Source: Candidatus Nanoarchaeia archaeon (GTDB lineage: Archaea; Nanoarchaeota; Nanoarchaeia; SCGC-AAA011-G17; JAFCDX01). From it: a DNA stretch of 64,000 nt. Below are positions 4,101-63,330 of the stretch, one piece after another; the first letter of the stretch is position 1, and every line of letters begins with the position of its first letter. The notes beneath the pieces were generated by a model. The model did not search any database. It was not told where the DNA came from and saw nothing but the letters and a program-made list of their open reading frames with translations. Position numbers and translations under genes: made by a program. The stretch spans positions 10,117-74,116 of the forward strand of contig JAQUND010000007.1 in the NCBI GenBank assembly GCA_028717785.1, given 5' to 3'.

Positions 4101-6278
4101 ATGAAGTTAGCAGGCAAACCGACAACCGTAACGACGAGCGCTGTATTCCAAGAGCTCAGTTTCGGTATCAAAGAAGCTGATATGGGCTTGATACTCGAAA
4201 TACTGCGCAGCAAGTTGTACAGTAACCCAATTGGTGCAATTTGCAGGGAAGTGAGCAGCAATTCCAGAGACGCCAACCGTGAAGCTGAAAACAACGTACC
4301 GATCGAAATTGGTATTGCCAACAGCCACTTGAGCATGAGCGACATGGTGATATACTTTAAGGATTTCGGTACTGGTATATCTCCTGAACGCATGGCTGAT
4401 GTGTTTGTCAACTACGGGAGTTCAACCAAGAGAGAGAGCGACACTTTCACTGGTGGCTTTGGCTTGGGCGCCAAAACGCCTTTCAGTTACACAGACAATT
4501 TTACGATCGAAACAATCGTTGCTGGTATCAAGTATACTTATGTGGCTGCAATCGAACAGGGCCGCAAGGGCAAAATATACTGCATTGATACGGCTGAAAC
4601 GCAAGAAGCTAACGGTACAACGATACTGGTCCCGATCAAATCAGGCGACCGTACTAACTTTGAGCAGGAATGCTACAAAGCAACTATCTTCTGGCCGATG
4701 CGCCCGGTATACAAAAACTTCGGGCTCAAACTTGAACGCCTCAAAATCGAAACGGTGCTTGACAACGACCAATTCATGATAGTCAAGCAGGATTTCCTGG
4801 GTCAGGGATATGGGTTGTTGCTTGACGGTATCTTCTACCCGATTTCAAGTTCACAAATCAACTGGGCAGGACACACCATTTATGACCACCAAGTCATATT
4901 CAAGTTTCCGGTTGGTGTGCTTACAATAAGTGCTAACCGGGAACATGTCCAGTACGACGAGAAAACAAAGAGCGCAATCAATCTTGCTTTTGTGGCTTTT
5001 ATAAATGAAGTCAAGTCTGTCTATCAAACTGAGTTCAAGAAATGCACTACCTGGTTACAGGCTGCTTTGTTTTATCAGAGCACAAAACAAGGGACGCTTT
5101 ACAAGTACCTTGATGCACATTTATCAGGTAGTGACCCGTACTGGAAAGAGGTTAAGAACTTTGACGGCCGGCAGTTAAGTTTGCGGCTTGACAGTCACTT
5201 CCAGACGCTCCAGTTTTTCGATGTAGAGAACGACAACGGGAAAGTTACCAGAACAAAAACGACAGAGATTGGCGATGCACTCCTTAAAGGTAGAGTTTTC
5301 TTGTTCGATGCAACAATGGCTTATATACCTTTAAAGGATGCAACAATCTTTGCTGGCGGTAATGAATACATGGCCATTCGGCCAACGGAACCCAAGTACT
5401 TGCGGTACAATGAACTGAATAAAGATGAGCGCAAGTCAATCAACAAGGGTTACCGCCGGTACCGCAAGGACCTGAAAGCACTTGCAAAGCTGGGTATTGC
5501 ATACAGCTTGTATAGCCATGTTGAAAAGATGAAGGTGACCAAAGAAGCTGCAGCAAAGATCCCAAGCGTGCGGCAACCTGATACATTGAAGGTGTGGATC
5601 CAGTATTTTAGCAATGCAGGGTCTTATTCCCGGCGTCATGGTTCAAGCAGCAAACCGGGTACTTATCAATATATCAAAGTGGATGGAAATCAGGTTGCAA
5701 GCGAGAGCGGCTCGCCATTCACCCTTGCTAACTATGCTCTAGTGCTTGTCGATGATATCCTCCAGATACCGAATATAGCATATGAGGATGCTGAGTACCG
5801 GATGCTGAGAATTGCAATGAATGCGAAACTGGTGCCTGAATTCAATGTGATTTATGCGAACAGGAACAGAGGCGCACGGTTGCTGGGGCTGATTGAAAGC
5901 CTTGATGCAAAACGCAAGTTGCTTACGCCAGCGATAATTACCAAGTTGGTTGATGCAAGTAATATTTCAACTGTGGTTGGTGACAAGACATGGTTGTGGA
6001 CTTACACTTACACAAGCAAAACTTTTACTGACCTGATGGCTACGATAAAGAGTTTGACAATAAATCTTGACATTTCAATGCCCAGTGACTTGATGGAGAA
6101 ATATGCGGCATCAAGCCAGTTGAGCACGTTGAAAGCACAAGTCGAAACCATGTACAAGACATTCCCAATGCTTAGCTTGTTGAGCCGCTACGAACTTGAG
6201 TATAGTGGGAAAACAGTGGTACAAGAATACATAAATGACCGTGAAACTATCCTTATGCAGGCCGGTAAACTGGTGTAA
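4101..6278 (+). CDS. rIIA: rIIA-like protein, GHKL-type ATPase domain, 725 aa
   Basis: The N-terminal 200 residues carry the GHKL/Bergerat ATP-binding motifs. These are the N-box helix with REVSSNSRDA, the DFGTGIS box, and the glycine box GGFGLGAKTPF. This is the layout of T4 rIIA, which has about the same length. In T4 the rIIA/rIIB pair is membrane-associated and counters host exclusion such as Rex; that role is inferred here. The matching rIIB-like gene lies 880 bp downstream rather than directly adjacent. The long C-terminal part has no motif I recognise. A strong terminator follows at 6316-6352. Confidence 0.85.
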   Translation: MKLAGKPTTVTTSAVFQELSFGIKEADMGLILEILRSKLYSNPIGAICREVSSNSRDANREAENNVPIEIGIANSHLSMSDMVIYFKDFGTGISPERMADVFVNYGSSTKRESDTFTGGFGLGAKTPFSYTDNFTIETIVAGIKYTYVAAIEQGRKGKIYCIDTAETQEANGTTILVPIKSGDRTNFEQECYKATIFWPMRPVYKNFGLKLERLKIETVLDNDQFMIVKQDFLGQGYGLLLDGIFYPISSSQINWAGHTIYDHQVIFKFPVGVLTISANREHVQYDEKTKSAINLAFVAFINEVKSVYQTEFKKCTTWLQAALFYQSTKQGTLYKYLDAHLSGSDPYWKEVKNFDGRQLSLRLDSHFQTLQFFDVENDNGKVTRTKTTEIGDALLKGRVFLFDATMAYIPLKDATIFAGGNEYMAIRPTEPKYLRYNELNKDERKSINKGYRRYRKDLKALAKLGIAYSLYSHVEKMKVTKEAAAKIPSVRQPDTLKVWIQYFSNAGSYSRRHGSSSKPGTYQYIKVDGNQVASESGSPFTLANYALVLVDDILQIPNIAYEDAEYRMLRIAMNAKLVPEFNVIYANRNRGARLLGLIESLDAKRKLLTPAIITKLVDASNISTVVGDKTWLWTYTYTSKTFTDLMATIKSLTINLDISMPSDLMEKYAASSQLSTLKAQVETMYKTFPMLSLLSRYELEYSGKTVVQEYINDRETILMQAGKLV

Positions 6279-9873: not shown

Positions 9874-10158
9874 ATGCACGCACACGAACGTACCGAACTC
9901 GAACTCCACGTGATTGACCACTTTTCGAAGCAAGCCGAACAGAGCGACTGGCAGGAACTCGATCCCAACGAACATTGCTTGCAGGAATTCTACCACGGCT
10001 ACTCAGAAAACAAGAGCGCCTATGCAAGCACTCCTGAAGAAATCGAATTGATCGATGATTGCATCCGGATTCTGGCTGCCGACATTGAAGGCTCACTTGA
10101 CTACAACGCCAATGACTGTGCAACGGTAATAAAGGCGCTTGAAACCTTTGGCCTGTAA
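9874..10158 (+). CDS. hypothetical acidic protein, 94 aa
   Basis: AAAGGAGAGAAAACA precedes ATG 9874, chosen over the in-frame ATG 9802 that lies upstream of the promoter. Acidic helical protein, no recognised family. Confidence 0.75.
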   Translation: MHAHERTELELHVIDHFSKQAEQSDWQELDPNEHCLQEFYHGYSENKSAYASTPEEIELIDDCIRILAADIEGSLDYNANDCATVIKALETFGL

Positions 10159-31713: not shown

Positions 31714-31785
31714 GCCCTTATGGCTTAATGGTAAAGCGGCCGTCTCTAAAACGGTGTCTATCTCAGTTCGAATCTGGGTAAGGGC
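31714..31785 (+). tRNA. tRNA with anticodon CUA (amber suppressor candidate)
   Basis: Acceptor GCCCTTA/TAAGGGC, D-arm GCTT-AATGGTA-AAGC, anticodon arm GCCGT-CTCTAAA-ACGGT, T-arm CTCAG-TTCGAAT-CTGGG; all stems pair. The anticodon CTA (31746-31748) reads UAG. CCA is not encoded. Its charged amino acid is unknown. Confidence 0.85.
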
Positions 31786-31786
31786 A

Positions 31787-40519: not shown

Positions 40520-42913
40520 TTAATTGTCTGTTCCTTTTGAGTCTTTCATATTCATTATAGGTTTAAGTCTGTCGATAATATTTGCAGTTGGACCTATAGC
40601 TTCTTCAATAATCATGGGGTTTTTATAAGCATTGGGCGCTTCATCAAGTGTCGACATGTTCACAGATGTCGAAAAAATCCCTTCCATTTGAGTTTCAAAA
40701 TCATTTAGTTTCAAAGTTTTTTTTGCTTGAGCACGTGACATGAAACGCCCAGCACCATGGGGTGCTGAAAAGTTCCACTCAGTGTTTGATTTCCCAGTAC
40801 AGACAAGAATACCATCTCGCATATTAAAAGGAATTATCATTCTTTCATTTTCATAGGACCTGATGGCACCTTTTCTGATTATGAAATCTTCAAAATCAAT
40901 AAAATTATGCACAGTTTCAATTGTGTCAATAGGCTCTATTTTGAGAATCTCAATTATCTTTCGGGAAATCAGCTCTCTATTTGTTTGTGCATAAATTTGC
41001 GCAAAAACCATATCAAAAAGATAAGCTTGTGCATCTTCTTCTTCAAGATAACAAAGGTCATCAGAAAAATTCAAAGTTACCGGAGCCTTTTCTTTTATAG
41101 TTTTTATTGCATCAAAAAGTTCTTTGCCTTTAAGAGTAAGTTTGAGATTTGCAATTTCTGTTTTTCTGTCGTCTCTCCCAGTTCTTTTCAGTTTTTTGAC
41201 GGCAATATCTTGCCAATATTCGCAGATACATTTTCCAAAATTTCGAGAACCTGTATGAATAGTGAGCCAATAATGATTGTTGGTCGAAAGACCGAGCTCA
41301 ATAAAATGATTTCCACCACCCAAAGAACAAAGACTTTTGATTGCTCTTCCAAGATCGCAACCAATTGATTTGCATTTTTGTTCAAACCAGGGAAAATCAA
41401 AATGAGGCAAAGAAATTCGAGTATTGAATTTTTCTTGATAAGAAACAGCAAATTTTTGAGCTGCTACATTGGTTTGTTTCCATGGGAATTCTTTAACAAA
41501 ATCAATAACAGATTTTTCGTTAATATCAAAGCCAAATGGGATTCTTTGACGAATTTTGTGATCAAGTTCTTGTAATGGTAAAGATAAATTTGAACCAATG
41601 TTGAATGTTCTCATACCGCAATTATGAACAAAAACTCCTGCAGATAATGCAAAATTACTATGTTCTTCGACTCGTAAACAATAAACTTTAGTGGGTTCAC
41701 AAGAAATTGTTTCAATAGATTTAATTTTATGGTTTTTGATTTGTTTGAATTCTTGAAATGTAAGCCCCTCATGTTTTTTTCTATGAGCATTTACTGCAAT
41801 TGGACTTGTAATTTTTTTATTACAGATCGGGCAAATATAAGTTCTATGTGCAATTTCTTTTGATTTTTCTTTTCCTTTAATAGACTTATTATATCTAACA
41901 AATGATACTTTTCCTCTTTGTCCTGCTGTTTTTGATTGTTCTTTAAATTTTTCTGTCTGACAATATACTCTAAAATTTTCTGCTGAAGCAGCATTTCTCT
42001 TTTTTTGAAATTCAGAGTTTTTACTTAATTTTTTCATTTTTTTAGATGACATTTTTCGAAACTTGTCATAATGTCTTTGCCAAGAGATTTTCCAACCTGA
42101 CTTACCTTGTTTATTTAATTCAGAAGCATGATCAGCATGTATTTTCCAATGTGTAAGCCAGGAAACTCTTTCTAAATTGGTTGGGTTATTGTCAAATTTA
42201 TTGAAATTTTTGTGATGTCTAACAAATATTTTTAATGAATTTTGTACATTTTTTCTTGTGTTATAATCGTCTGCTAAACAATGAACATAATCATATTTAT
42301 TAGTTTTAGGATTATAGACAACTAAATAATCCGTGTTTTTTAAATAATTTGATTTTGTTGAAATATTTTTTACTTGTTTTGCCTTTTTAATATAGAGAGG
42401 AAATAAAGAAACTCCTGCTTCAAGATTTTTTGCTTCTATTTCTTTTTGGTTTAATAAAAAGAAGATATGATCTTCAGTACAATAAATAATTTCGTCATTA
42501 TCAAGAATAATTTTGACTAATTTTGTGACAATTTTTGTGAAAAATATAGATAAAATTTTTGTAATAATGATATTTCCAAGAGGATCTTTTGCAAAGCAAA
42601 AGTTTTCTTTTCCTTCTTCTTGTTCTTTGATGAGATCCAAGAAGTTCAATTTTCTGTTATCTGCAAGTTCTACTTTAGTTTCTCCAATGAAACAACCAAT
42701 ATCCACGCCGATTACATTAGGAATGATTTTTTCTGTCATTGGCATTGTGAAACCTACGACAGAGCCTTTTCCAGCATGTGTATCGGGCATGATTGCTATA
42801 GGATTTGTAAAAACAGGATGATTAAGAAAGCCTATAATTTGTGAAGTACAGGCTTCCTCAACGTAATCAATCATAATTTTTGCTGTCGTATATTTACCAT
42901 TCATTTCATACAT
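40520..42913 (-). CDS. rtcB: RtcB RNA-splicing ligase precursor with intein, 797 aa
   Basis: Exteins (439 aa) carry RtcB signatures: PDTHAGKGSVVGFT, NVIGVDIG|CGMRTF, GGGNHFIELG, HTGSRNFGK and SAPHGAGRFMSR with the guanylylated His. RtcB joins 2',3'-cyclic phosphate or 3'-phosphate RNA ends to 5'-OH ends with GTP and Mn2+, as in tRNA splicing and repair. The intein splits GVDIG and the metal-binding Cys of CGM, the same point used by the Pyrococcus RtcB intein as I recall it. SD AAGGAAGCTCT is upstream. No archease gene was seen in this window. Confidence 0.93.
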   Translation of the reverse strand: MYEMNGKYTTAKIMIDYVEEACTSQIIGFLNHPVFTNPIAIMPDTHAGKGSVVGFTMPMTEKIIPNVIGVDIGCFIGETKVELADNRKLNFLDLIKEQEEGKENFCFAKDPLGNIIITKILSIFFTKIVTKLVKIILDNDEIIYCTEDHIFFLLNQKEIEAKNLEAGVSLFPLYIKKAKQVKNISTKSNYLKNTDYLVVYNPKTNKYDYVHCLADDYNTRKNVQNSLKIFVRHHKNFNKFDNNPTNLERVSWLTHWKIHADHASELNKQGKSGWKISWQRHYDKFRKMSSKKMKKLSKNSEFQKKRNAASAENFRVYCQTEKFKEQSKTAGQRGKVSFVRYNKSIKGKEKSKEIAHRTYICPICNKKITSPIAVNAHRKKHEGLTFQEFKQIKNHKIKSIETISCEPTKVYCLRVEEHSNFALSAGVFVHNCGMRTFNIGSNLSLPLQELDHKIRQRIPFGFDINEKSVIDFVKEFPWKQTNVAAQKFAVSYQEKFNTRISLPHFDFPWFEQKCKSIGCDLGRAIKSLCSLGGGNHFIELGLSTNNHYWLTIHTGSRNFGKCICEYWQDIAVKKLKRTGRDDRKTEIANLKLTLKGKELFDAIKTIKEKAPVTLNFSDDLCYLEEEDAQAYLFDMVFAQIYAQTNRELISRKIIEILKIEPIDTIETVHNFIDFEDFIIRKGAIRSYENERMIIPFNMRDGILVCTGKSNTEWNFSAPHGAGRFMSRAQAKKTLKLNDFETQMEGIFSTSVNMSTLDEAPNAYKNPMIIEEAIGPTANIIDRLKPIMNMKDSKGTDN
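41621..42694 (-). mobile_element. intein with HNH homing endonuclease inside rtcB, 358 aa
   Basis: Begins with Cys (CFIGETKVEL), has block B TEDH, and ends VFVHN before the extein Cys: a class 1 intein. The insert carries an HNH region (VRHHKNFNKFDNNPTNLERVSWLTHWKIHADH is split by me as HH...NN...H...H) and a C2H2 finger (CPIC...HRKKH) for DNA recognition. Splicing residues look intact. Confidence 0.88.
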
Positions 42914-43106: not shown

Positions 43107-43556
43107 TTAATGAACTGCCATTTGTTTTCTTAAAATTTCTCGTGTTTCCATTAAAATTTTACCAAGCATGTTTTTGCCCGTACCACTACTTCCACAGCCC
43201 CAATAAGAATCAATATGTGAGTCTTCAATAATTTCTTCATCACCAGTGCCAAGTAGAAGAGCTTTTAGTTCAGGATAAGTAGAAAATTTAGCAAGAACAC
43301 ATTTTCTCATTACATCGTCTTTTATTGATTCCCAATCTTTTCTTAAAGGTATGGATCTATCTCTACCTAATTCTGCAGCTTCTCTTGGTGTTGCTGCATT
43401 TGCAATCATTTCAAAACGTACTGTATTTACATATTTTTGTGCTTGAAAATAATGTTCTGTAGTTTTCCAAGTATAGCCATCAAGTTTGAATGTATGGCGA
43501 GAAAAATTCGAAAACGCACCAAAAGGTTCTTTAATTTTATAGAATTTGATAGGCAT
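43107..43556 (-). CDS. NADAR/YbiA-like N-glycosidase, 149 aa
   Basis: GGAGAAGTTCAA precedes ATG. Typical NADAR order: FYKIKEPFGAFSNFSRHTF, TTEHYFQAQKY, AATPREAAELGRDR, MRKCVLAKF, and the end SYWGCGSSGTGKNMLGKILMETR. Members hydrolyse riboflavin intermediates or remove ADP-ribose from guanine in DNA/RNA. In a genome with a PARP gene the second role is attractive. Length is normal. Confidence 0.85.
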   Translation of the reverse strand: MPIKFYKIKEPFGAFSNFSRHTFKLDGYTWKTTEHYFQAQKYVNTVRFEMIANAATPREAAELGRDRSIPLRKDWESIKDDVMRKCVLAKFSTYPELKALLLGTGDEEIIEDSHIDSYWGCGSSGTGKNMLGKILMETREILRKQMAVH

Positions 43557-50378: not shown

Positions 50379-51791
50379 TTATTTGGTCATTTCAACCAGA
50401 TATGTTAAAGTGGCTTGTTGCAATTTGAAAACAATAAATTCGTCATTATATAACGATCTTCCTTTTTGAGCATGAATTGAGTCATATCCATGTGGTATTC
50501 CAGAATACCGAGCGTCATGGGCTACAAATGTTTTTCCCATAGCAACATTTGCAAGAAATAAGAAAGAATTTGAATTTTTATTGCCACGTCCGCCCCAAAA
50601 TCCTGTAGAGTAATTAAGAGATTTCGTCGATGCATTAGCAAAATAAATACCATCACCGAACATACGACCTGTGACATGACCGGCATTGCATGAAGGGATG
50701 ATCAGACCCCCCTTGAGAATACTCAAAATATTGCCATTTTTTGAGCCATGGAAGAGTTCATGTTGGTTACCGAATTGTTTTTCAGTTTTTTCAAATCTTG
50801 CTCTTTCTGCAGGTATTTTGATTTTGAAAACGTTTTTAGGTTTCCAGTTCCACACATCAGAACCACGATGATTTCCCGCTTTTGTTGTCGTAATATAGGA
50901 GTAAATTCGATCAATTTCTCTTTTGTCGGAAACTATTTCGATATCTGTACCAAGAGCGCGTTTTTGTTGTGCGGCATTTTGCATGGCGGCACCCATTGTA
51001 ACAGCTGATTCAAGGTTGTCAAGCAATTCGAATTCTTCGGCGAGTTTTGCCGCAGAAAGAATCCAGTCATCTTTTGTTATTTTGTGTCCAAAGGGATGGG
51101 GAATCATGGAGAAATATTTTGCATTGTGATCTCGAGTCAATTGATTGTCGGGGTTGATTTCGTCATTAACCATCAGAGATTTCAAAGACATAAGTGGGAC
51201 TCTTGCATTTGCCACATGTTCTTTTGTGACGGGACCCAGGGGAGTTTCAAACCCATTTGATGTTAGTTTCAAGGTTGTCAATGTAGAAATGGTATGGATG
51301 TTTTCATCGACAATTTGACGGATAATTCGAGCAACTTCCGGATTGGAATAAGAGTCAACAACATCATCTTTTTTGACTGAAACAGTAATGCCAACATTTT
51401 TTCCGCGGACATTGACAGAGCCAACCGTGGGTGCGAATGTCTCGACCAATTCATATTTTTCAACACGGTTTCCACCGAGTTCGCTTTCTTTTTTCTTGCC
51501 TTTGAGTTTTGAAGCGAGGATAACTTCAAATTCACGATCTGCTGTTGAAAGATCGAGAGGTCTACCGAGGTATTCATCGCGGACTTCATAAACATCGGTT
51601 TTTCCGAGACGGCCATAATGAGTAAATAACCGATATTGACCTTTAGAATTTTTTTGAAGCTCTATTGAATAGAACTTGTTGTTGTTTCCTTCAGGGTTGC
51701 CGCAGAATAAAACTTTATGTTTTACTGTTTCTGTAAAACCATCGTTTTCAGGTCCTGACACTTTCCGGGATTTTAACAGTTTTTCCGCCAT
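50379..51791 (-). CDS. WGR-PARP ADP-ribosyltransferase, 470 aa
   Basis: AGGAGACTCAA then ATG. Residues about 25-130 form a WGR-like domain (NKFYSIELQ...THYGRLGKTD). Residues about 170-290 are a helical PARP regulatory-like region (ETPLGPVTKEHV). The catalytic domain (about 330-470) has ELFHGSK, GDGIYFANASTKSLNY and NDEFIVF, i.e. the H-Y-E triad of poly-ADP-ribose polymerases. Predicted to sense damaged nucleic-acid ends and ADP-ribosylate protein or nucleic acid. GC-rich relative to its neighbours. Confidence 0.88.
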   Translation of the reverse strand: MAEKLLKSRKVSGPENDGFTETVKHKVLFCGNPEGNNNKFYSIELQKNSKGQYRLFTHYGRLGKTDVYEVRDEYLGRPLDLSTADREFEVILASKLKGKKKESELGGNRVEKYELVETFAPTVGSVNVRGKNVGITVSVKKDDVVDSYSNPEVARIIRQIVDENIHTISTLTTLKLTSNGFETPLGPVTKEHVANARVPLMSLKSLMVNDEINPDNQLTRDHNAKYFSMIPHPFGHKITKDDWILSAAKLAEEFELLDNLESAVTMGAAMQNAAQQKRALGTDIEIVSDKREIDRIYSYITTTKAGNHRGSDVWNWKPKNVFKIKIPAERARFEKTEKQFGNQHELFHGSKNGNILSILKGGLIIPSCNAGHVTGRMFGDGIYFANASTKSLNYSTGFWGGRGNKNSNSFLFLANVAMGKTFVAHDARYSGIPHGYDSIHAQKGRSLYNDEFIVFKLQQATLTYLVEMTK

Positions 51792-52260
51792 TTGAGTCTC
51801 CTATCGTTTCTATACAGTCCCAATCTTCATCTAAAATATCTTTCAAAGTTTGCTGAAACAATAGATGTGATTGAAATATTTTTTCTGGTGGAACTTTTGA
51901 GCCAAATGTTCTAGCATTAACTCTTGAAACAGCCACATTTGGGTCTGTAGGAAAAAGAATTGCTTTGCGTTTAAAATCCGATACTTGAAGAGGAAGAGCC
52001 CCAAGAAAGTCTCTTCTTAAAAATGTACTTGTGTTAGTTGCATCAAATGTTATTGAAATATTATTTACTAAAGCCCAACGTGTTGTGTATTTTGCAATAT
52101 TCCAAACAGTCTCTTCTTGACTATGATTTGAAATATCACCAGTTAAATATAATCGTATTGAATCAGGACAGACAACATAAGTTTTTCGAGGTTGTATGTT
52201 TAGCCAAGTAGATTTCCCAGAACCGGGAATACCGATCAACATATTGAACCAAATATCCAT
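51748..52260 (-). CDS. polynucleotide-kinase-type P-loop kinase, 170 aa
   Basis: Walker A GIPGSGKSTW at the N-terminus, then VCPDSIR and FDATNTSTFLRRDFL as in AAA_33/T4 Pnk kinase domains. No phosphatase domain. It would phosphorylate 5'-OH nucleic-acid ends. Joined to the ThiF gene by a one-base overlap and to PARP by 44 nt. Confidence 0.8.
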   Translation of the reverse strand: MDIWFNMLIGIPGSGKSTWLNIQPRKTYVVCPDSIRLYLTGDISNHSQEETVWNIAKYTTRWALVNNISITFDATNTSTFLRRDFLGALPLQVSDFKRKAILFPTDPNVAVSRVNARTFGSKVPPEKIFQSHLLFQQTLKDILDEDWDCIETIGDSNGGKTVKIPESVRT

Positions 52261-52892
52261 TATATTCTCGAAATTTTGAAGTCTTTTAAAGTTATCACGA
52301 AATTACGCTTTTCACCTGTTTCTAAATATGCTATTAATATCTCTGTCGCTACAGCAATAGCCAACAAAATTATATTCCTTGCTAAAGGATATTCACATAT
52401 ATCCATATTAGTTACTTCATCAGGCACTCTGTATTTTTCGTTCCAGATTATTTCAGCATAATCTTGGAACAAACCAATATGCAAACAATCAATGTTATTT
52501 TCTTTACAATATTCTGTTATCAATTTTCTACTTGGTACATTGTCAAAGCCATCAATAACTAAACTTGAAGGCTCTATAAGATTAAGATTTGATTTATCAA
52601 GTTTTTTAGAAATTGCAGTAATTTGCGTATTGAGAACTTCAAACATTCTATTTCTTAATGCTGTTACTTTAAGCTGTCCAATCTCTCTTGAGCTCCATAT
52701 TTGTGTATGTCTATTTCCATCTTCAACTCTGTCAAAATCTATTACGGAAATTTTTTTGAAGCCTTGACGGATCAAATTATCGACAAGATTAGAACCTATA
52801 GCTCCAGCACCACACATAGTAATAGAAAATTTTGACATCATTTCGAATAATACTTTTTCCCGATATAGTTCTTCATGTTTGAAAGTACTCAT
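52260..52892 (-). CDS. ThiF/E1-like adenylyltransferase (PRTRC-ThiF type), 210 aa
   Basis: Rossmann motif GAGAIGSNLVDNLIRQG, then VIDFDRVEDGNRHTQ and VIDGFDNVPSR define the E1/ThiF ATP site. A candidate thioester Cys is in MDICEYPLARN. It should adenylate the C-terminal Gly of a ubiquitin-like partner; the candidate is the product of 56023. Confidence 0.88.
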   Translation of the reverse strand: MSTFKHEELYREKVLFEMMSKFSITMCGAGAIGSNLVDNLIRQGFKKISVIDFDRVEDGNRHTQIWSSREIGQLKVTALRNRMFEVLNTQITAISKKLDKSNLNLIEPSSLVIDGFDNVPSRKLITEYCKENNIDCLHIGLFQDYAEIIWNEKYRVPDEVTNMDICEYPLARNIILLAIAVATEILIAYLETGEKRNFVITLKDFKISRI

Positions 52893-53125
52893 TTTATCTC
52901 TCTTTCAATATCCCATGCAGGTCTGAATTTATCAAGTACTATATATCCTCTTGACATAGCTTTCTCTTGGAATTTTTTAAATGAACATTCCAAAATTATT
53001 TCCTGTTTTTCGTTACTGTCATAAAATTCGGCAGATATAGAACATAAGCGAGCTGCACATCCTGTTTTCTTTTCTATATACACTTTTTCTTTTGTTGCAT
53101 AGACATTATAAGGAAATTTAGACAA
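52889..53125 (-). CDS. hypothetical protein, 78 aa
   Basis: TTG start without SD, coupled by ATGA to thiF at its end. Strand-rich, with one central helix. It may be joined to the small upstream ORF by recoding (TAG and TGA lie between in the same frame). Confidence 0.5.
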   Translation of the reverse strand: MSKFPYNVYATKEKVYIEKKTGCAARLCSISAEFYDSNEKQEIILECSFKKFQEKAMSRGYIVLDKFRPAWDIEREIK

Positions 53126-53149
53126 TGCTCATTTTTTTCTTTCTTTTTT

Positions 53150-53257
53150 CTAATTTTTTCCTGAGCTTTTTATTAAATAATGCACCTTTATTTTCATAGA
53201 AGCAAGCCAGTTAATAACATCTTCAGGAGTTTCTTTTTTGAACCCTTTATTTTTCAT
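53150..53257 (-). CDS. short ORF, 35 aa
   Basis: ATGA overlap with the JAB gene end. Sequence TPEDVINWLAS looks like a real helix. Stops at TAG. Confidence 0.45.
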   Translation of the reverse strand: MKNKGFKKETPEDVINWLASMKIKVHYLIKSSGKN

Positions 53258-53667
53258 AGAATTCCAATATAAAAATGTTTGATTAGTTTATCTCTCATAA
53301 TTGGTTGGTAGTTCACATTGCCGCCAGGCCAACGTTTAAATAAATAACAATTTCTCCAAAGAAATTCTCTTCTTTTTTTATGGTCATACATGATCCCACA
53401 AATCAATGGGCGTTCTAAAGTTCTAACCCAAGAACGCATTGTTTTTTTGTCTTCTTTGCTTGGATTCAAAGTAACCGTAGTTGGATGGGTATGAAACCAC
53501 CCGATGATAAATTTTGACAAACCTTTTCGCCAATCAAATTCTACAGCAAACTCTTCACCTTCATCCAAATATTTAAGCCAACCGAAAATAAATTTTCCAA
53601 TTTTAAAACCGTATAATGTCCAGCATCTTTCTTTAAAAGTTGTGAGTTCTATGGATTCTTCCTGCAT
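53254..53667 (-). CDS. JAB/JAMM metallopeptidase (PRTRC-A-like), 137 aa
   Basis: The JAMM zinc motif is intact: GWFHTHP...LNPSKEDKKTM, with HxH, Ser and Asp at the expected spacing, and an upstream Glu in EFAVEFD. JAB enzymes cleave ubiquitin-like proteins after Gly-Gly. Start overlaps the previous gene end by 35 nt. Confidence 0.9.
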   Translation of the reverse strand: MQEESIELTTFKERCWTLYGFKIGKFIFGWLKYLDEGEEFAVEFDWRKGLSKFIIGWFHTHPTTVTLNPSKEDKKTMRSWVRTLERPLICGIMYDHKKRREFLWRNCYLFKRWPGGNVNYQPIMRDKLIKHFYIGIL

Positions 53668-54478
53668 GCTGACCCTCTCTCATAACTGTTATAAGACTTT
53701 TTAAATCATATTTTCTATCTTCACCAGACAAACAAATTCCAGCAGTTATTACGCTATGACTTTCGTTTTTACTCACATGGCTTGTATATTGTTGTCCATC
53801 GACAATATAAGTTACGCTGAAATGGTCGCTTTTTTCCGTAAATTTTATAAATTCGCCACCAGCATGTTCAACATCATCTTTAAGAGATGTCTTCTTTTTG
53901 TCAATTACAAGTTTTTTATCAAGTGTAACTCTTAAAGTATAAGCAATTTTTTCTTCGATTGTCAAACCCGAATAATTAATTTTCTTTGAATCGACAACTT
54001 TCAACAATTTCTCTCTTAAATATGATGCCTTTGAAATGTCATTTGAATAATCCAATTGATGGTACCAGAAATTTGCGCCATCAAAACGCACAATGACTCT
54101 GTCAAAATCTTGAACTGAATCATCAGTAAGATACACAGGGATCATTTGCTCAAATGGAAGTTTTAAATTATTTGATTTTTCGGGTATACCAAAATAAACG
54201 TTATTTTTTTTCATTACAAGAATAAAACGAATCTTGGTTAGAAACTTCAAATAAGTATCGATATCAGAAAGATCAGCCTGTTCGACAGTTTTTGCTGTCT
54301 TTCTGTCTATGGATTGTATTTTATACCAACCTGGAGTTTTTTGCGAAATTTTGAATTTATAAACAATGCCTTCGATCTTGGTGGCTACATATTCATTAAA
54401 AAAAATAGGGGAGATAAACTCTTGAATAGCCGCTTCTTTCTCCCCTACTTTTTTAATAAGATCAAAAACATTAGACAT
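53633..54478 (-). CDS. E2-like / PRTRC-B-like protein candidate, 281 aa
   Basis: Start 54478 overlaps the stop of the vWA gene by 8 nt. N-terminal half strand-rich (FKISQKTPGWYKI). The C-terminal end ITAGICLSGEDRKYDLKSL places one Cys in a context resembling prokaryotic E2/PRTRC-B ends. Assignment rests mainly on its place between JAB and the Ubl-TROVE pair. Confidence 0.5.
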   Translation of the reverse strand: MSNVFDLIKKVGEKEAAIQEFISPIFFNEYVATKIEGIVYKFKISQKTPGWYKIQSIDRKTAKTVEQADLSDIDTYLKFLTKIRFILVMKKNNVYFGIPEKSNNLKLPFEQMIPVYLTDDSVQDFDRVIVRFDGANFWYHQLDYSNDISKASYLREKLLKVVDSKKINYSGLTIEEKIAYTLRVTLDKKLVIDKKKTSLKDDVEHAGGEFIKFTEKSDHFSVTYIVDGQQYTSHVSKNESHSVITAGICLSGEDRKYDLKSLITVMREGQHAGRIHRTHNF

Positions 54479-56021
54479 AAGACTTTCGAATCGGAAGTGG
54501 AAAGTCCATAATTTCATAAACAAGGTCTAACTTTGATTTACGAGAAAGCAAAGGTATCAGACCTGAAAGTCCATAGTAGTCATTTCCTGATGGTTCATAT
54601 GAATCAAAAGAAATTCCTGCGTTTTTAAGCGAAGTACTGAGTCCAGTTTTTTTGTCACCTACTCTTACGATAATAATTGCAGGAGTTACTTTCATTTCCT
54701 GTACATACTTTGGAAATACATCAGCAAATCGTGGATTCTGGTTTTCATCCTCATCAGTCACAATAATGAGCTGTTCAGCATATAATTTATACCTGATCAT
54801 GAAATCAAGAGCACAACCAACTGAAGTTCTACCGCTTGCATGGATTGGCGCAAATGCTTTTTCCCAAGCAGTTAATGTATTTTCACTTGCTTTAACAGCT
54901 TGTGCCATAGTATCAAATGCGACACCGAACAAATCAGCTTCCATTGAACCACAAATTGTTGCAGCAATCTGTTTTCCAACTTGAATTGCAACATCCATAG
55001 AACCTGATCTGTCAATGAGCAACCCAGTAGAAACTTTGATTGACCCAGATTTTTTGATTTGCTTATCAGCAATTTCATCCAACTGCTTGAGAACAGTTTC
55101 GTCTTTGACTCTTCCTGTCTGCTTAGCTCTTTTGGATTTGAGAGCAGTTACATTCTTTGCTGTTTTTGCTGCTTCAAGTTTTTCTGTGATCAATTTTTTT
55201 GTTCCAGGATTATCCATTGCACCTTTTTCTTGCAAAGAAGCAATGTTTGTAATAATTTCCTGAGCAGTCATGTTATTGATCAAAGCAATCAAAATAGATG
55301 GCGTAATTTTATCTCTCAAACCTACTGCAATAGTGTAAGGAATTTTATGTTGCACCATCAGATTGGCTGCTTTCTCAGGCGTATCAGCTTCTCTGATTTG
55401 TTTGAAAACAGTAAGTTTGCTATCTTCAGGAAATTTTTCTTCAAACAGGATTTGTTGTGCTCTTGGACAAGGTTTGATCTGAACACCTTTACCTGCATAA
55501 AAAGATTTCAAATCATTGAAATTTGTCAGAGCAACAGAATCAAATCTATCATTGTCTTTTTCAAGCCAACGAACATATCTTTCGATTTCAGTTCGAAGTA
55601 TGTTTGGGATATTTTTGATAAGACCAACTTGTTTCTTAGAATTTTTGATCTCATCAATCATTTTCTTTCCGCGTTTGACTTGTTCACCCGTCTTTTCCCT
55701 CAGAGTGATTTTCTTCCCTTTAATGAAACTGAGAATTTTGATTTTCATAAAGGGAGCTTGATTTTGAAAAAGAGCAATACCTGTTTCGCGATTGTCCAAG
55801 AAAGGATCTGTGATCAACATGGCTGTGAAAACTTCATTATGATCACGAAGATCACCATTCTTTTTGTACCATGCAGCAAGATGTGCATAGAACACAGGAT
55901 CTTTCTCTCTCATTTCTGCATGAATTTTTTGCAATTCACCCGTGTCTCGATGAGGACAGGTCATAAATGAGTTGAGGATTTTAACCCTGATGTCTTGTTC
56001 TTTTTTTACCATAGTTGTCAT
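54471..56021 (-). CDS. TROVE-like/vWA (Ro60-like) protein, 516 aa
   Basis: Start 56021 after GGGGAGGTCATTAAA; an upstream frame to 56105 lacks an SD. Residues about 1-300 are helical repeats comparable to the TROVE ring of Ro60/Rsr. Residues about 325-500 are a vWA domain with the MIDAS set DRSGSM, GRTSVG and TDEDEN. Ro proteins bind Y RNAs and misfolded or damaged RNAs. The SD lies in the Gly-Gly codons of the Ubl gene. Confidence 0.8.
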   Translation of the reverse strand: MTTMVKKEQDIRVKILNSFMTCPHRDTGELQKIHAEMREKDPVFYAHLAAWYKKNGDLRDHNEVFTAMLITDPFLDNRETGIALFQNQAPFMKIKILSFIKGKKITLREKTGEQVKRGKKMIDEIKNSKKQVGLIKNIPNILRTEIERYVRWLEKDNDRFDSVALTNFNDLKSFYAGKGVQIKPCPRAQQILFEEKFPEDSKLTVFKQIREADTPEKAANLMVQHKIPYTIAVGLRDKITPSILIALINNMTAQEIITNIASLQEKGAMDNPGTKKLITEKLEAAKTAKNVTALKSKRAKQTGRVKDETVLKQLDEIADKQIKKSGSIKVSTGLLIDRSGSMDVAIQVGKQIAATICGSMEADLFGVAFDTMAQAVKASENTLTAWEKAFAPIHASGRTSVGCALDFMIRYKLYAEQLIIVTDEDENQNPRFADVFPKYVQEMKVTPAIIIVRVGDKKTGLSTSLKNAGISFDSYEPSGNDYYGLSGLIPLLSRKSKLDLVYEIMDFPLPIRKSYV

Positions 56022-56022
56022 T

Positions 56023-56274
56023 TTAATGACCTCCCCATCTCGCATTGGGACGTACGGTGATATTTCCGTTCGAGTTGATTTCGACAAAATGAGCTTCAAA
56101 TTCATTTTGATTCACATCATAATGATTTGCTAAAGCTCGTTTTACAATTTCTGGTGTCATATTTCTTGGTTCAGGATTTGTTACTCCCAGAGCTTCATGT
56201 CTATCTGGTCTGAACACTTCGTCAAACTCAAGATCTTCATTTCTTCCGCCGTAAACAACATGGATCGTTGACAT
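56023..56274 (-). CDS. ubiquitin-like modifier candidate (PRTRC-C-like), 83 aa
   Basis: Beta-hairpin (IHVVYGGRNEDLEFDEVF), helix (TPEIVKRALANHY) and final strands ending RWGGH. The size and layout suit a beta-grasp or PRTRC-C protein. The end Gly-Gly-His would give a free Gly-Gly after removal of one residue, as JAB processing predicts. First gene of the operon. Confidence 0.7.
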   Translation of the reverse strand: MSTIHVVYGGRNEDLEFDEVFRPDRHEALGVTNPEPRNMTPEIVKRALANHYDVNQNEFEAHFVEINSNGNITVRPNARWGGH

Positions 56275-56341: not shown

Positions 56342-56380
56342 GCTAAAAACAAAAGAGGGCTCTTTTGATTGAGCCCTCTT
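56342..56380 (-). terminator. terminator of the tRNA array
   Basis: GAGGGCTC/GAGCCCTC with an 8-nt loop, followed on the minus strand by TTTTGTTTTT. It separates the tRNA array from the Ubl operon. Confidence 0.8.
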
Positions 56381-56439
56381 CTTCATCGTGAATTTTAAAA
56401 TTTAAGTCATGTCTGAGTTCTGAGAGCTGTTTTCTTTGT

Positions 56440-56514
56440 CCAATTAGCAGTTGGGTGCCTTAAACCACTCGGCCATACTCCACCGCCGGTGGAGCAGTCA
56501 GATTTGAACTGACG
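56440..56514 (-). tRNA. circularly permuted tRNA-Ser (GCU)
   Basis: The 3' half comes first on the minus strand (56514-56488: T-arm GTCAG-TTCAAAT-CTGAC, then TGCTCCACC). After a GGC linker (56487-56485) the 5' half follows (56484-56440: GGTGGAGTA, D-arm TGGCCGAGTGGTTTAAGGCA, anticodon arm CCAA-CTGCTAA-TTGG). Acceptor TGGAGTA/TGCTCCA pairs across the linker. The break falls in the long variable arm. Needs cutting at the linker, and ligation or a tolerated nick in the variable arm. Confidence 0.75.
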
Positions 56515-56602
56515 AAAAAAATGTAAGCTTCCAAGGTTAAAAGACATGACTTATTTTTTCCTTATTTAAAAGACAAGTGTTCGAGTTATAAATGCTATTT
56601 TT

Positions 56603-56678
56603 TGGTCGCTTTTCCTGGATTTGAACCAAGAACGAATTGTTCCAATAACAATTGCTCTACCAATTGAGCTTAAAAGCA
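56603..56678 (-). tRNA. tRNA-Gln (UUG)
   Basis: Normal order: acceptor TGCTTTT/AAAAGCG, D-arm GCTC-AATTGGTA-GAGC, anticodon arm ATTGT-TATTGGA-ACAAT, T-arm CTTGG-TTCAAAT-CCAGG, encoded ACCA end. Confidence 0.85.
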
Positions 56679-56757
56679 TGTAAGCACTTAGAGTTAAAGA
56701 ACACTTGTTTATTTTTCAAAATTAAAACTGCTCGAGTTACGTATGCTATTTTTTACT

Positions 56758-56845
56758 TTCCCCCACCAAGAAAACACATATTTTCTTAGCGGGGGAATGA
56801 CGAATCGAACGTCAAACTTCGGTTTGGTGAACTAAAGTTATATCC
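56758..56845 (-). tRNA. tRNA-like element, apparently permuted, identity unresolved
   Basis: T-arm TGACG-TTCGATT-CGTCA (56814-56798) and 3' acceptor strand TTCCCCC (56797-56791) precede the 5' acceptor strand GGGGGAA (56764-56758). They are joined by a 10-bp hairpin with TATGTG loop. About 31 nt upstream of the T-arm could hold a partial D and anticodon arm, but I cannot fold a standard 7-base loop, so the amino acid is unknown. It may be decayed. Confidence 0.45.
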
Positions 56846-56932
56846 ATGTAAGCACCCGATGTTAAAGAGCAGTTTTAAAAATTTATTTTCAATTTGAAAT
56901 GAACAAATGCTCGAGTTGTAAATGCTAGTTTT

Positions 56933-57008
56933 TGGCTACTTTTTCAGGATTCGAACCTGAGACTTATCGCTTAATAGGCAATCGCTCTACCAGCTGAGCT
57001 ACAAAGTA
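56933..57008 (-). tRNA. tRNA-Asn-like with anticodon AUU
   Basis: Acceptor TACTTTG/AAAAGTA (one mismatch), D-arm GCTC-AGCTGGTA-GAGC, anticodon arm ATTGC-CTATTAA-GCGAT, T-arm TCAGG-TTCGAAT-CCTGA, encoded GCCA. The loop gives anticodon ATT, where GTT would be normal. Confidence 0.8.
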
Positions 57009-57041
57009 ATGTAAGCACTTGCTGTTAAAGAGCATTTGTTC

Positions 57042-61943: not shown

Positions 61944-62326
61944 GTAAAATAAATGATTCTGCACAACAAGGCGTGTATTTCTTTCTTTGTCCAGGTTGTA
62001 ATTGTGCTCATTGGTTTTCTACAAGTGGTTTTACACCTGCACAAGCCTTAACAGACACTGTCCCTAAAGGACCTGTATGGACTTGGAATGGTGATAGAGA
62101 AAAACCAACAATTAGAGCTTCTATTTTAACCAAACATGTAAAAAACCCACCAGGAGATCCGAGTACTTGGGTTTTTGAAAACAATAAAGCTGTTGGTTGC
62201 AAGCAAATAATTTGTCACAGTTTTATAACTGATGGAAAAATTCAATTTCTACCAGATAGTACTCATGAACTAAGTGGTCAAACTGTGGAACTTCTTGATT
62301 GGGACCAAAAAGGTCAAGAGGATTAA
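61940..62326 (+). CDS. DUF6527-like protein, 128 aa
   Basis: ATGA overlap with the HD-GYP gene. Pattern FLCPGCNCAHWF, TWNGDREKPTIRASIL, CHSFITDGKIQFLPDSTHELSGQTVEL fits a phage-borne zinc-binding family I recall as DUF6527, sometimes near ubiquitin-like genes. Function unknown. Confidence 0.7.
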   Translation: MSKINDSAQQGVYFFLCPGCNCAHWFSTSGFTPAQALTDTVPKGPVWTWNGDREKPTIRASILTKHVKNPPGDPSTWVFENNKAVGCKQIICHSFITDGKIQFLPDSTHELSGQTVELLDWDQKGQED

Positions 62327-63330
62327 GATATTTTATTCGGTATTACTTTTTGTTGCATCCAATTATGTTCAGTTTGAACGTGGCCTTTTCTCACCCATTT
62401 GGCTACGTTCTTTCTGAATTTAGAAAAATGTATAACCCCTGAAGTTCTTATCACATAACCTTCGACAAGATCTTTACTCTCATTACAATACTTTTCGAAG
62501 GCTTTCGTAATTGCTTCTGGATCATAAATCCCTCGATAAAAAACAGGAACGGTAGTTAAATCAAGCAGCTCGCAATACTCTACTGTTTCATCCCAACACA
62601 ATGCTTCATTTTTGTCATTCCAAATAGAGAACACATTGAAAAAGCTTGTAAGATGCATATAATGAATTGAATGTTTTGCAAAAAGATTCTCTCCACAAAT
62701 CCTGTATCCTTGTGGTATTTGATATGCAATACTCCCATGCAACGCTTTCACCCATGTTCTTGACTCATGCCCGACAGAATCAATTGACCTAGCATGAATA
62801 TAATCAGGATACATATTGGTGTTTTCACCATCCATCTTTATTGTGCCAACAATTTCTTTTCCAAGAAATGCTGATTCATCTCTGAGTTTCTTGTCATTTT
62901 TCTGGAGCCCAGGAGAATTTGAAAGATGAAATGTTTTCTGATATTTGAAATAAGGAAGAAATAAATGGAGAGAATCTTTTAAAGCTTTTTGCACGTTAGG
63001 TTGTTCAAAAAGTTCACCTTTTAGACGTGTACCATTTGTGTTTACTATATTTCCCCAATGGTCATATTGTTCTTCAAAATCAAAATAATCTGGGAGATAA
63101 ACTTTTGTAATGCAAGCTTTTTCTCTTAATTTGCTGCAAGAAATCTTTGTCTCTTCTGCTTCAATATGATGCTCAGCACAAAGACTTACTCCATTATCAA
63201 GATGATAACCACCATCTTCGAACAGAGAACGATCAATAATATGGTGAGCATCAACAGCAGGAGCACCACACATGACACACTTGTTATTGTCTCGCTTAAA
63301 GACTGATTCTCTGAATTGTGTACGATCCAT
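62323..63330 (-). CDS. HNH-RNA ligase fusion, 335 aa
   Basis: Residues about 1-60 form an HNH zinc module (CVMCG, DAHHIIDRSLF, LCAEHH). Residues about 160-330 form a nucleotidyltransferase ligase domain: IKMDGEN (motif I, Lys nucleophile), RICGENLFAKHSI (motif III), VEGYVIRT (motif IV), FSKFRKNVAKWVRK (motif V), like T4 Rnl2-type RNA ligases. Predicted to seal RNA 3'-OH/5'-phosphate nicks. Confidence 0.85.
   Translation of the reverse strand: MDRTQFRESVFKRDNNKCVMCGAPAVDAHHIIDRSLFEDGGYHLDNGVSLCAEHHIEAEETKISCSKLREKACITKVYLPDYFDFEEQYDHWGNIVNTNGTRLKGELFEQPNVQKALKDSLHLFLPYFKYQKTFHLSNSPGLQKNDKKLRDESAFLGKEIVGTIKMDGENTNMYPDYIHARSIDSVGHESRTWVKALHGSIAYQIPQGYRICGENLFAKHSIHYMHLTSFFNVFSIWNDKNEALCWDETVEYCELLDLTTVPVFYRGIYDPEAITKAFEKYCNESKDLVEGYVIRTSGVIHFSKFRKNVAKWVRKGHVQTEHNWMQQKVIPNKIS

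Follow-up and report, generated by a model that had tools for sequence, protein, structure and literature searches.

What does a serine-type tRNA whose 3′ half is encoded before its 5′ half do just upstream of a gene for a predicted Ro60-fold protein? The question arises from a 64,000-nucleotide stretch of contig JAQUND010000007.1 (assembly GCA_028717785.1, filed under Candidatus Nanoarchaeia archaeon; positions 10,117 to 74,116), hereafter called the window, the source of which is likely a giant phage. A preliminary description, which named no strand, took the element for a permuted tRNA-Ser gene whose product would be cut and then either ligated or used in two pieces. The element (minus strand, 56403-56553) is the last of four tandem cassettes with one shared frame (minus strand, 56403-57041), and since this array lies just upstream of the Ro60-fold gene, cassette 4 is read here as probably a YrlA-type Y RNA, in which a permuted Ser-type tRNA(GCU) head would be held by Ro60 as a stable look-alike and not as a joined tRNA.

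The array and its permuted member

The permuted layout is real, as ARAGORN finds no tRNA in the linear order of the cassette 4 insert and a tRNA-Ser(gct) in the doubled insert, and the rotated call was returned by none of 1,000 dinucleotide shuffles of the insert and none of 19,796 random segments of the window. The arms follow in the order T-arm (GUCAG-UUCAAAU-CUGAC), acceptor hairpin (UGCUCCACC-GGC-GGUGGAGUA; 56476-56496), D-arm (GGCCGAGUGGUUUAAGGC), anticodon arm (CCCAA-CUGCUAA-UUGGA; 56439-56455), with 4 of 5 stem pairs and the loop CUGCUAA (GCU, Ser), and half of a variable arm (CAAAGAAAA), the partner of which (UUUUUUUC) precedes the T-arm, so that the insert is a tRNA shape opened in the variable arm. 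The flanking helix described earlier does bring the ends together, but it is 12 bp long with 12 of 12 pairs and not 9 bp (outer helix P1, 5′ strand 56542-56553 and 3′ strand 56403-56414, minus strand). The GGC linker likewise joins the acceptor strands. In ordinary tRNA-Ser, two bases (U8 and G9) precede the D-stem; if the same holds here, the 7-bp acceptor is UGCUCCA/UGGAGUA and CC-GGC-GG caps it with two extra pairs around a triloop, so that a cut in GGC would leave a 9-bp acceptor. No CCA is encoded, and the acceptor end is sealed by the GGC cap. The minimum-energy fold of the cassette (z −2.85) draws the outer helix, T-arm, and acceptor hairpin.

Three sibling cassettes upstream of cassette 4, missed in the preliminary description, have the same frame. 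Its 5′ side consists of the outer helix P1, UUUAAC with three further bases, an inner helix P2, and UACAU, and the insert is followed on the 3′ side by AGC with four bases, AACUC, and the other P1 strand; the outer helix pairs within each of the four cassettes. Cassettes 1 (56901-57041) and 3 (56573-56708) hold normal-order tRNAs with an encoded CCA, which are detected by both ARAGORN (tRNA-Asn att, 56933-57008, and tRNA-Gln ttg, 56603-56678, respectively) and Rfam. Cassette 2 (56722-56878) holds another apparently permuted insert with an anticodon-like arm (C33 by eye), a T-arm, and an acceptor hairpin with a long extension; it was not recognized by ARAGORN in any trim tried, and inspection by eye suggests, tentatively, a tRNA whose opening lies in the D-loop. 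All of these features are on the minus strand, as is a weak terminator-like hairpin with a T tail directly after the array (56351-56382; one found against a shuffle mean of 0.5), and a similar hairpin follows the array of the viral locus L121.

A Y-RNA-like frame beside Ro60-like genes

The adjoining gene (54471-56105, minus strand; the database copy starts at 56021) encodes a predicted TROVE plus vWA protein and is taken as the Ro60 orthologue next to which the array is encoded. Its predicted model has the Ro60 fold over nearly the full length (matches to PDB 2nvo, 1yvp, and 9l5y, with 11–15% identity in the structure alignments), and D335, S337, and S339 of DxSxS, the metal-site motif of vWA domains, are invariant among 48 sequences. 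No curated TROVE profile is among its NCBIfam matches (E up to 0.1). TROVE proteins are reported from a small subset of jumbo phages (PMC7824862), and permuted tRNA mimics are known as bacterial Y RNAs, of which 6CU1 superposes on tRNA by circular permutation (PMC11472068). In YrlA, a basal stem that serves Rsr accompanies the D, T, and acceptor arms, and DusA and TruB modify the RNA (PMC8394870). YrlA, the best-known bacterial Y RNA, mimics tRNA without an anticodon arm, for which inhibition of an anticodon nuclease has been suggested as one explanation (PMC7790460). Cassette 4 shares with this type the long stem from paired 5′ and 3′ ends and the permuted T, acceptor, and D arms (which stand in normal order in cassettes 1 and 3), but instead of a stem replacing the anticodon arm it has the arm itself, which is absent from the Rfam alignment.

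The same frame surrounds Rfam YrlA matches beside bacterial orthologues. In L146 (3402-3511, 38.4 bits), the match consists of GAACGCGC, UCUAAG, CGAGCGAGCG, and UACAU, followed by the T-arm, acceptor hairpin, D-arm, CUCGCUCG, ACUU, and GCGCGUUC, and in L147 (62-126, 36.7 bits) it lies by eye in such a frame, which was not picked up by the frame detector. L147 also has a cassette (767-897) with the arm order of cassette 4, anticodon arm included. A YrlA scan of 201 Chloroflexota genomes gave a match in 47, none above the cut-off, and among 20 places returned as loci, four carry the frame, three of them with a Ro60-like gene within the 3-kb stretch (one of these three, L158, being the L146 genome again).

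The paired transcript ends would form an outer helix, an internal loop (UUUAAC/AACUC), and an inner helix, and this stem is the putative handle for Ro60. Read from the sequence, this stem leaves the tRNA shape at different points in different cassettes, namely at the acceptor end, the variable loop, the anticodon side, or, less surely, the D-loop, and the acceptor end of permuted inserts is closed by a hairpin. The head would then meet tRNA-acting enzymes, as YrlA meets DusA and TruB (PMC8394870). Since an anticodon arm is present, unlike in YrlA, its likeliest job would be that of an adaptor or decoy for host enzymes which read or cut anticodon arms, with RNA-repair genes encoded in the same genome.

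Protein searches returned 4 and 15 viral loci, of which several share a contig or come from near-identical ones, as well as one locus in a 595-kb uncultured phage and eight in bacterial metagenome-assembled genomes (MAGs). With near-identical contigs counted once, there are 13 distinct viral arrays, in 12 of which the Ro60-like gene is accompanied by frame cassettes whose insert is tRNA-like or made up of two hairpins (those of L123, with a short outer helix, read by eye; that of L133 on the opposite strand); L139 has one short hairpin only, 3.2 kb from the gene. The cassettes stay by the gene in viral relatives from 73% to 38% protein identity, and among the eight bacterial loci a frame with a recognizable RNA is found in five (L141, L144, L145, L146, and L147), with no trustworthy frame seen in L142, L143, and L148. 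L121 repeats the four cassettes of the window in unchanged order. The acceptor hairpin of its cassette 4 counterpart (UAUCUCC-UCGGUGA-GGGGAUA) has a GGU cap and no CCA, and it differs from that of the window on both strands with 7 of 7 pairs in each, while CCAACUGCUAAUUGGA of the anticodon arm is also present. The anticodon of cassette 1 differs (AUU in the window, UAA in L121), and in L121 cassette 3 lacks CCA and its anticodon loop is defective.

Among 41 curated cassettes, ARAGORN saw a tRNA in 14 in linear order, in 9 only upon rotation, and in 18 in neither. By arm order, 18 cassettes are permuted. A firm class of 11 is opened in the variable loop (window_7459, L121_5556, L125_2413, L128_3328, L129_3013, L133_6567, L133_6769, L135_3143, L135_3331, L137_2665, and L147_767) and recurs in eight distinct viral arrays, the window included, and one bacterial MAG. 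Three are opened on the anticodon side (L140_3293, L144_41, and L145_7234), a class of fair standing for which trimming gives 87, 39, and 125 of 195 trims, and four are tentatively opened in the D-loop (window_7134, L121_5240, L128_2813, and L129_2697), where L128_2813 is weakly supported by 3 of 195 trims and the other three are unsupported by trimming. Other cassettes have two hairpins or no tRNA shape. All 18 permuted cassettes have a hairpin-closed acceptor (GNRA caps in four, UUCG in one), and 15 are without CCA. Anticodons with A34, which are unusual in bacteria, recur in the window (AUU), L128 (AAU and AAG), and L129 (AUU). The permuted cassettes are taken here as tRNA mimics, and the normal-order ones may be either mimics or tRNAs.

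Other elements occur in the frame or between cassettes. Short frame hairpins without a tRNA-like head, which look like plain Y RNAs, are found in L138 (714-771 and 2551-2609) and L125 (5234-5290), and a second class of two-hairpin inserts in L128 (3184-3284), L129 (2513-2631), L133 (minus strand, 6169-6266), L135 (2609-2709), and L140 (3001-3089). Units with a hairpin ahead of GTGGATTGAAAC or of a similar sequence, which we take to resemble CRISPR repeats, lie between the cassettes of three of the 13 viral arrays, two in each (L123 5416-5453 and 5559-5596; L129 2826-2855 and 2910-2939; L132 2663-2702 and 2845-2884), and might serve as cutting sites; none was found in the window array.

Weighing the readings

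Several results weigh against cassette 4 as a YrlA-type Y RNA. The Rfam YrlA model (RF02553) has no match in the window (E up to 10) or in L121, L123, L125, L128, L130, L135, and L141, the Rfam search having covered no other phage loci, and the array is therefore filed as a YrlA-type variant and not as a member of RF02553. Every YrlA match cited above falls short of the gathering score (69). The scan that returned the Chloroflexota matches also gave hits in 6 of 14 controls, which makes weak matches unspecific. The Ro60-fold protein has no Pfam TROVE match (E up to 1). The outer helices are not wholly private, as the 5′ strand of cassette 3 pairs at 11 of 12 positions with the 3′ strand of cassette 1. 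The minimum-energy fold of cassette 4 is without the tRNA D-arm and anticodon arm, its anticodon stem alone is no better than shuffles, and single anticodon stems are generally within chance (reached by shuffles in 9–84%). The GCU arm is identical in L121, and U33 is kept in 8 of 11 variable-loop cassettes (as scripted), both of which fit decoding too. CCA is encoded in 11 of 17 normal-order cassettes, a count from which L123, L128_2364, L130_2452, L132_2544, L135_2984, and L137_2448 (normal-order or doubtful) were left out, and NCCA follows the acceptor in 3 of 18 permuted cassettes (L128_2813, inside a long helix; L135_3143; L140_3293), as if such cassettes once were or still are processed.

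Different functions can be imagined for a Ro60-held head. In a tentative extension of the favored reading, giant-phage Ro60 would display anticodon-bearing tRNA shapes hung by different corners, so that every face is shown to host nucleases and modifying enzymes, with ubiquitin-like and RNA-repair genes alongside. It is a more doubtful proposal that the RNAs act like those of Deinococcus, where, according to the model published for Rsr with bacterial Y RNA (PMC8394870; PMC7790460), the head links the Ro60 ring to PNPase, a host exonuclease, for the degradation of structured RNA; the anticodon arm would then be incidental, which leaves unexplained both the anticodon arms with U33 in 8 of 11 cassettes and the several attachment points within one array.

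Alternatively, the frame would serve for processing, as an RNase III stem might, and free ordinary tRNAs; the normal-order members would then act in translation, and the permuted members would be broken or two-piece. The CCA of the 11 normal-order cassettes and the acceptance of many normal-order members as tRNAs by ARAGORN or Rfam speak for this, but it is unlikely given that the frame is seen again around a YrlA match in a bacterium, next to the same protein, that the adjoining gene has a Ro60 fold, that variable-loop forms in eight viral arrays and one MAG are not single accidents, and that cassette 3 of L121 combines a defective anticodon loop with the lack of CCA.

A true permuted tRNA gene, in which cuts in the acceptor linker and the stem are followed by joining of the variable arm, through RtcB or RNA ligase, to give a working tRNA-Ser(GCU), is improbable. 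The rotated insert is accepted by ARAGORN, L121 has kept the anticodon arm but not the acceptor, three other permuted cassettes have NCCA after the acceptor, and a kinase-like protein is encoded together with the two ligases named in the preliminary description, namely RtcB (with an inserted intein that has an HNH match; 40520-42913, minus strand) and an RNA ligase (with a weak HNH match; 62323-63330, minus strand). The cut-and-ligate claim is nevertheless unsupported, as the flanking helix is the shared frame of a four-member array by a Ro60-fold gene, a frame that also surrounds whole tRNAs needing no joining, the bacterial YrlA match, and short tRNA-free hairpins (L138_714 and L138_2551). 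The acceptor is sealed in both the window and L121, without CCA, a GGC cut would leave two surplus acceptor pairs, and sister anticodon loops are changed or odd (C33 in cassette 2, by eye; A34 in cassette 1 and L128). The junction of a permuted tRNA gene is defined by a bulge-helix-bulge splice site; that of cassette 4, read by eye, has internal loops of about 9 and 7 nt and an inner helix of 4–8 bp, with no plain 3-nt bulges, a layout that speaks neither for nor against such a gene. Functionless debris of tandem tRNA duplication is scarcely credible. The four cassettes do resemble related duplicates, but each has a pairing outer helix, the acceptor of cassette 4 changed on both strands relative to L121 with its pairs intact, and the cassettes are kept by the gene down to 38% protein identity.

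Neighboring genes and known systems

The conserved neighborhood at 52260-56274, all on the minus strand, comprises an 83-aa protein (56023-56274) that is a weak candidate for a ubiquitin-like protein (its model is beta-beta-alpha-beta-beta, and a Gly close to the C-terminus is invariant), the Ro60-fold protein, a 296-aa protein with no assigned function (53633-54523), a JAB-domain protein (53254-53667; Pfam match below the cut-off), and a ThiF/E1-like protein (52260-52892), which suggests protein conjugation tied to the Ro60 particle. A polynucleotide-kinase-like protein follows (51748-52260, minus strand). Across 20 loci, some of which end too early to show the genes, the 83-aa protein was counted in 13, the 296-aa protein in 15, ThiF in 11, JAB in 8, the kinase and the PARP in one (L121), and a 78-aa ORF in none. 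The same phage-like genome encodes a NADAR-domain protein (43107-43556) and a PARP with a WGR domain (50379-51791). Outside the frame lies a tRNA with the anticodon CUA (ARAGORN tRNA-Pyl; 31714-31786, plus strand), a possible amber suppressor.

In the literature within reach, which leaves out most subscription papers, no report was found of Y RNAs with anticodon arms, of several attachment points for the Ro60 stem, or of permuted tRNAs in phages. A 2014 paper reportedly puts Y RNAs close to Ro60 in >250 species of bacteria and phages, and with this coverage only the variant is claimed as new. Natural heads with an anticodon arm, hung from the stem at different points, offer a direct test of the arm missing from YrlA, and tRNA finders take such heads for ordinary phage tRNAs and overlook the permuted ones.

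Like YrlA (RF02553; Salmonella PDB 6CU1), the array has ends paired into a long stem and a Ro60-family gene, cassette 4 has the head order T-arm, acceptor hairpin, and D-arm of the Rfam alignment, and AACUC(G) of the frame resembles the Rfam consensus AcUuG. Unlike YrlA, it has an anticodon arm in the head, four cassettes in a row, no match to the Rfam model, and a stem that joins at the variable loop and elsewhere at the acceptor end or, less surely, the D-loop. The window protein has the fold and DxSxS of Ro60/Rsr/TROVE proteins (2nvo, 1yvp, and 9l5y, the last from Thermus phage phiLo), and differs from them in its low identity, in lacking a Pfam TROVE match, and in its linkage to ThiF, JAB, and a small protein that may be ubiquitin-like. 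Permuted tRNA genes are known from red and green algae and archaea, and cassette 4 shares with them the 3′ half encoded before the 5′ half, but it lacks CCA, nothing more than a capping triloop separates its halves, and the same frame holds unpermuted tRNAs too. With ordinary phage tRNA arrays, the window has in common tRNA-like genes in a row and RtcB, kinase, and ligase in the genome, and it is set apart from them by the shared frame, the Ro60-fold gene, and, relative to L121, a cassette 1 anticodon that differs where the GCU of cassette 4 is kept.
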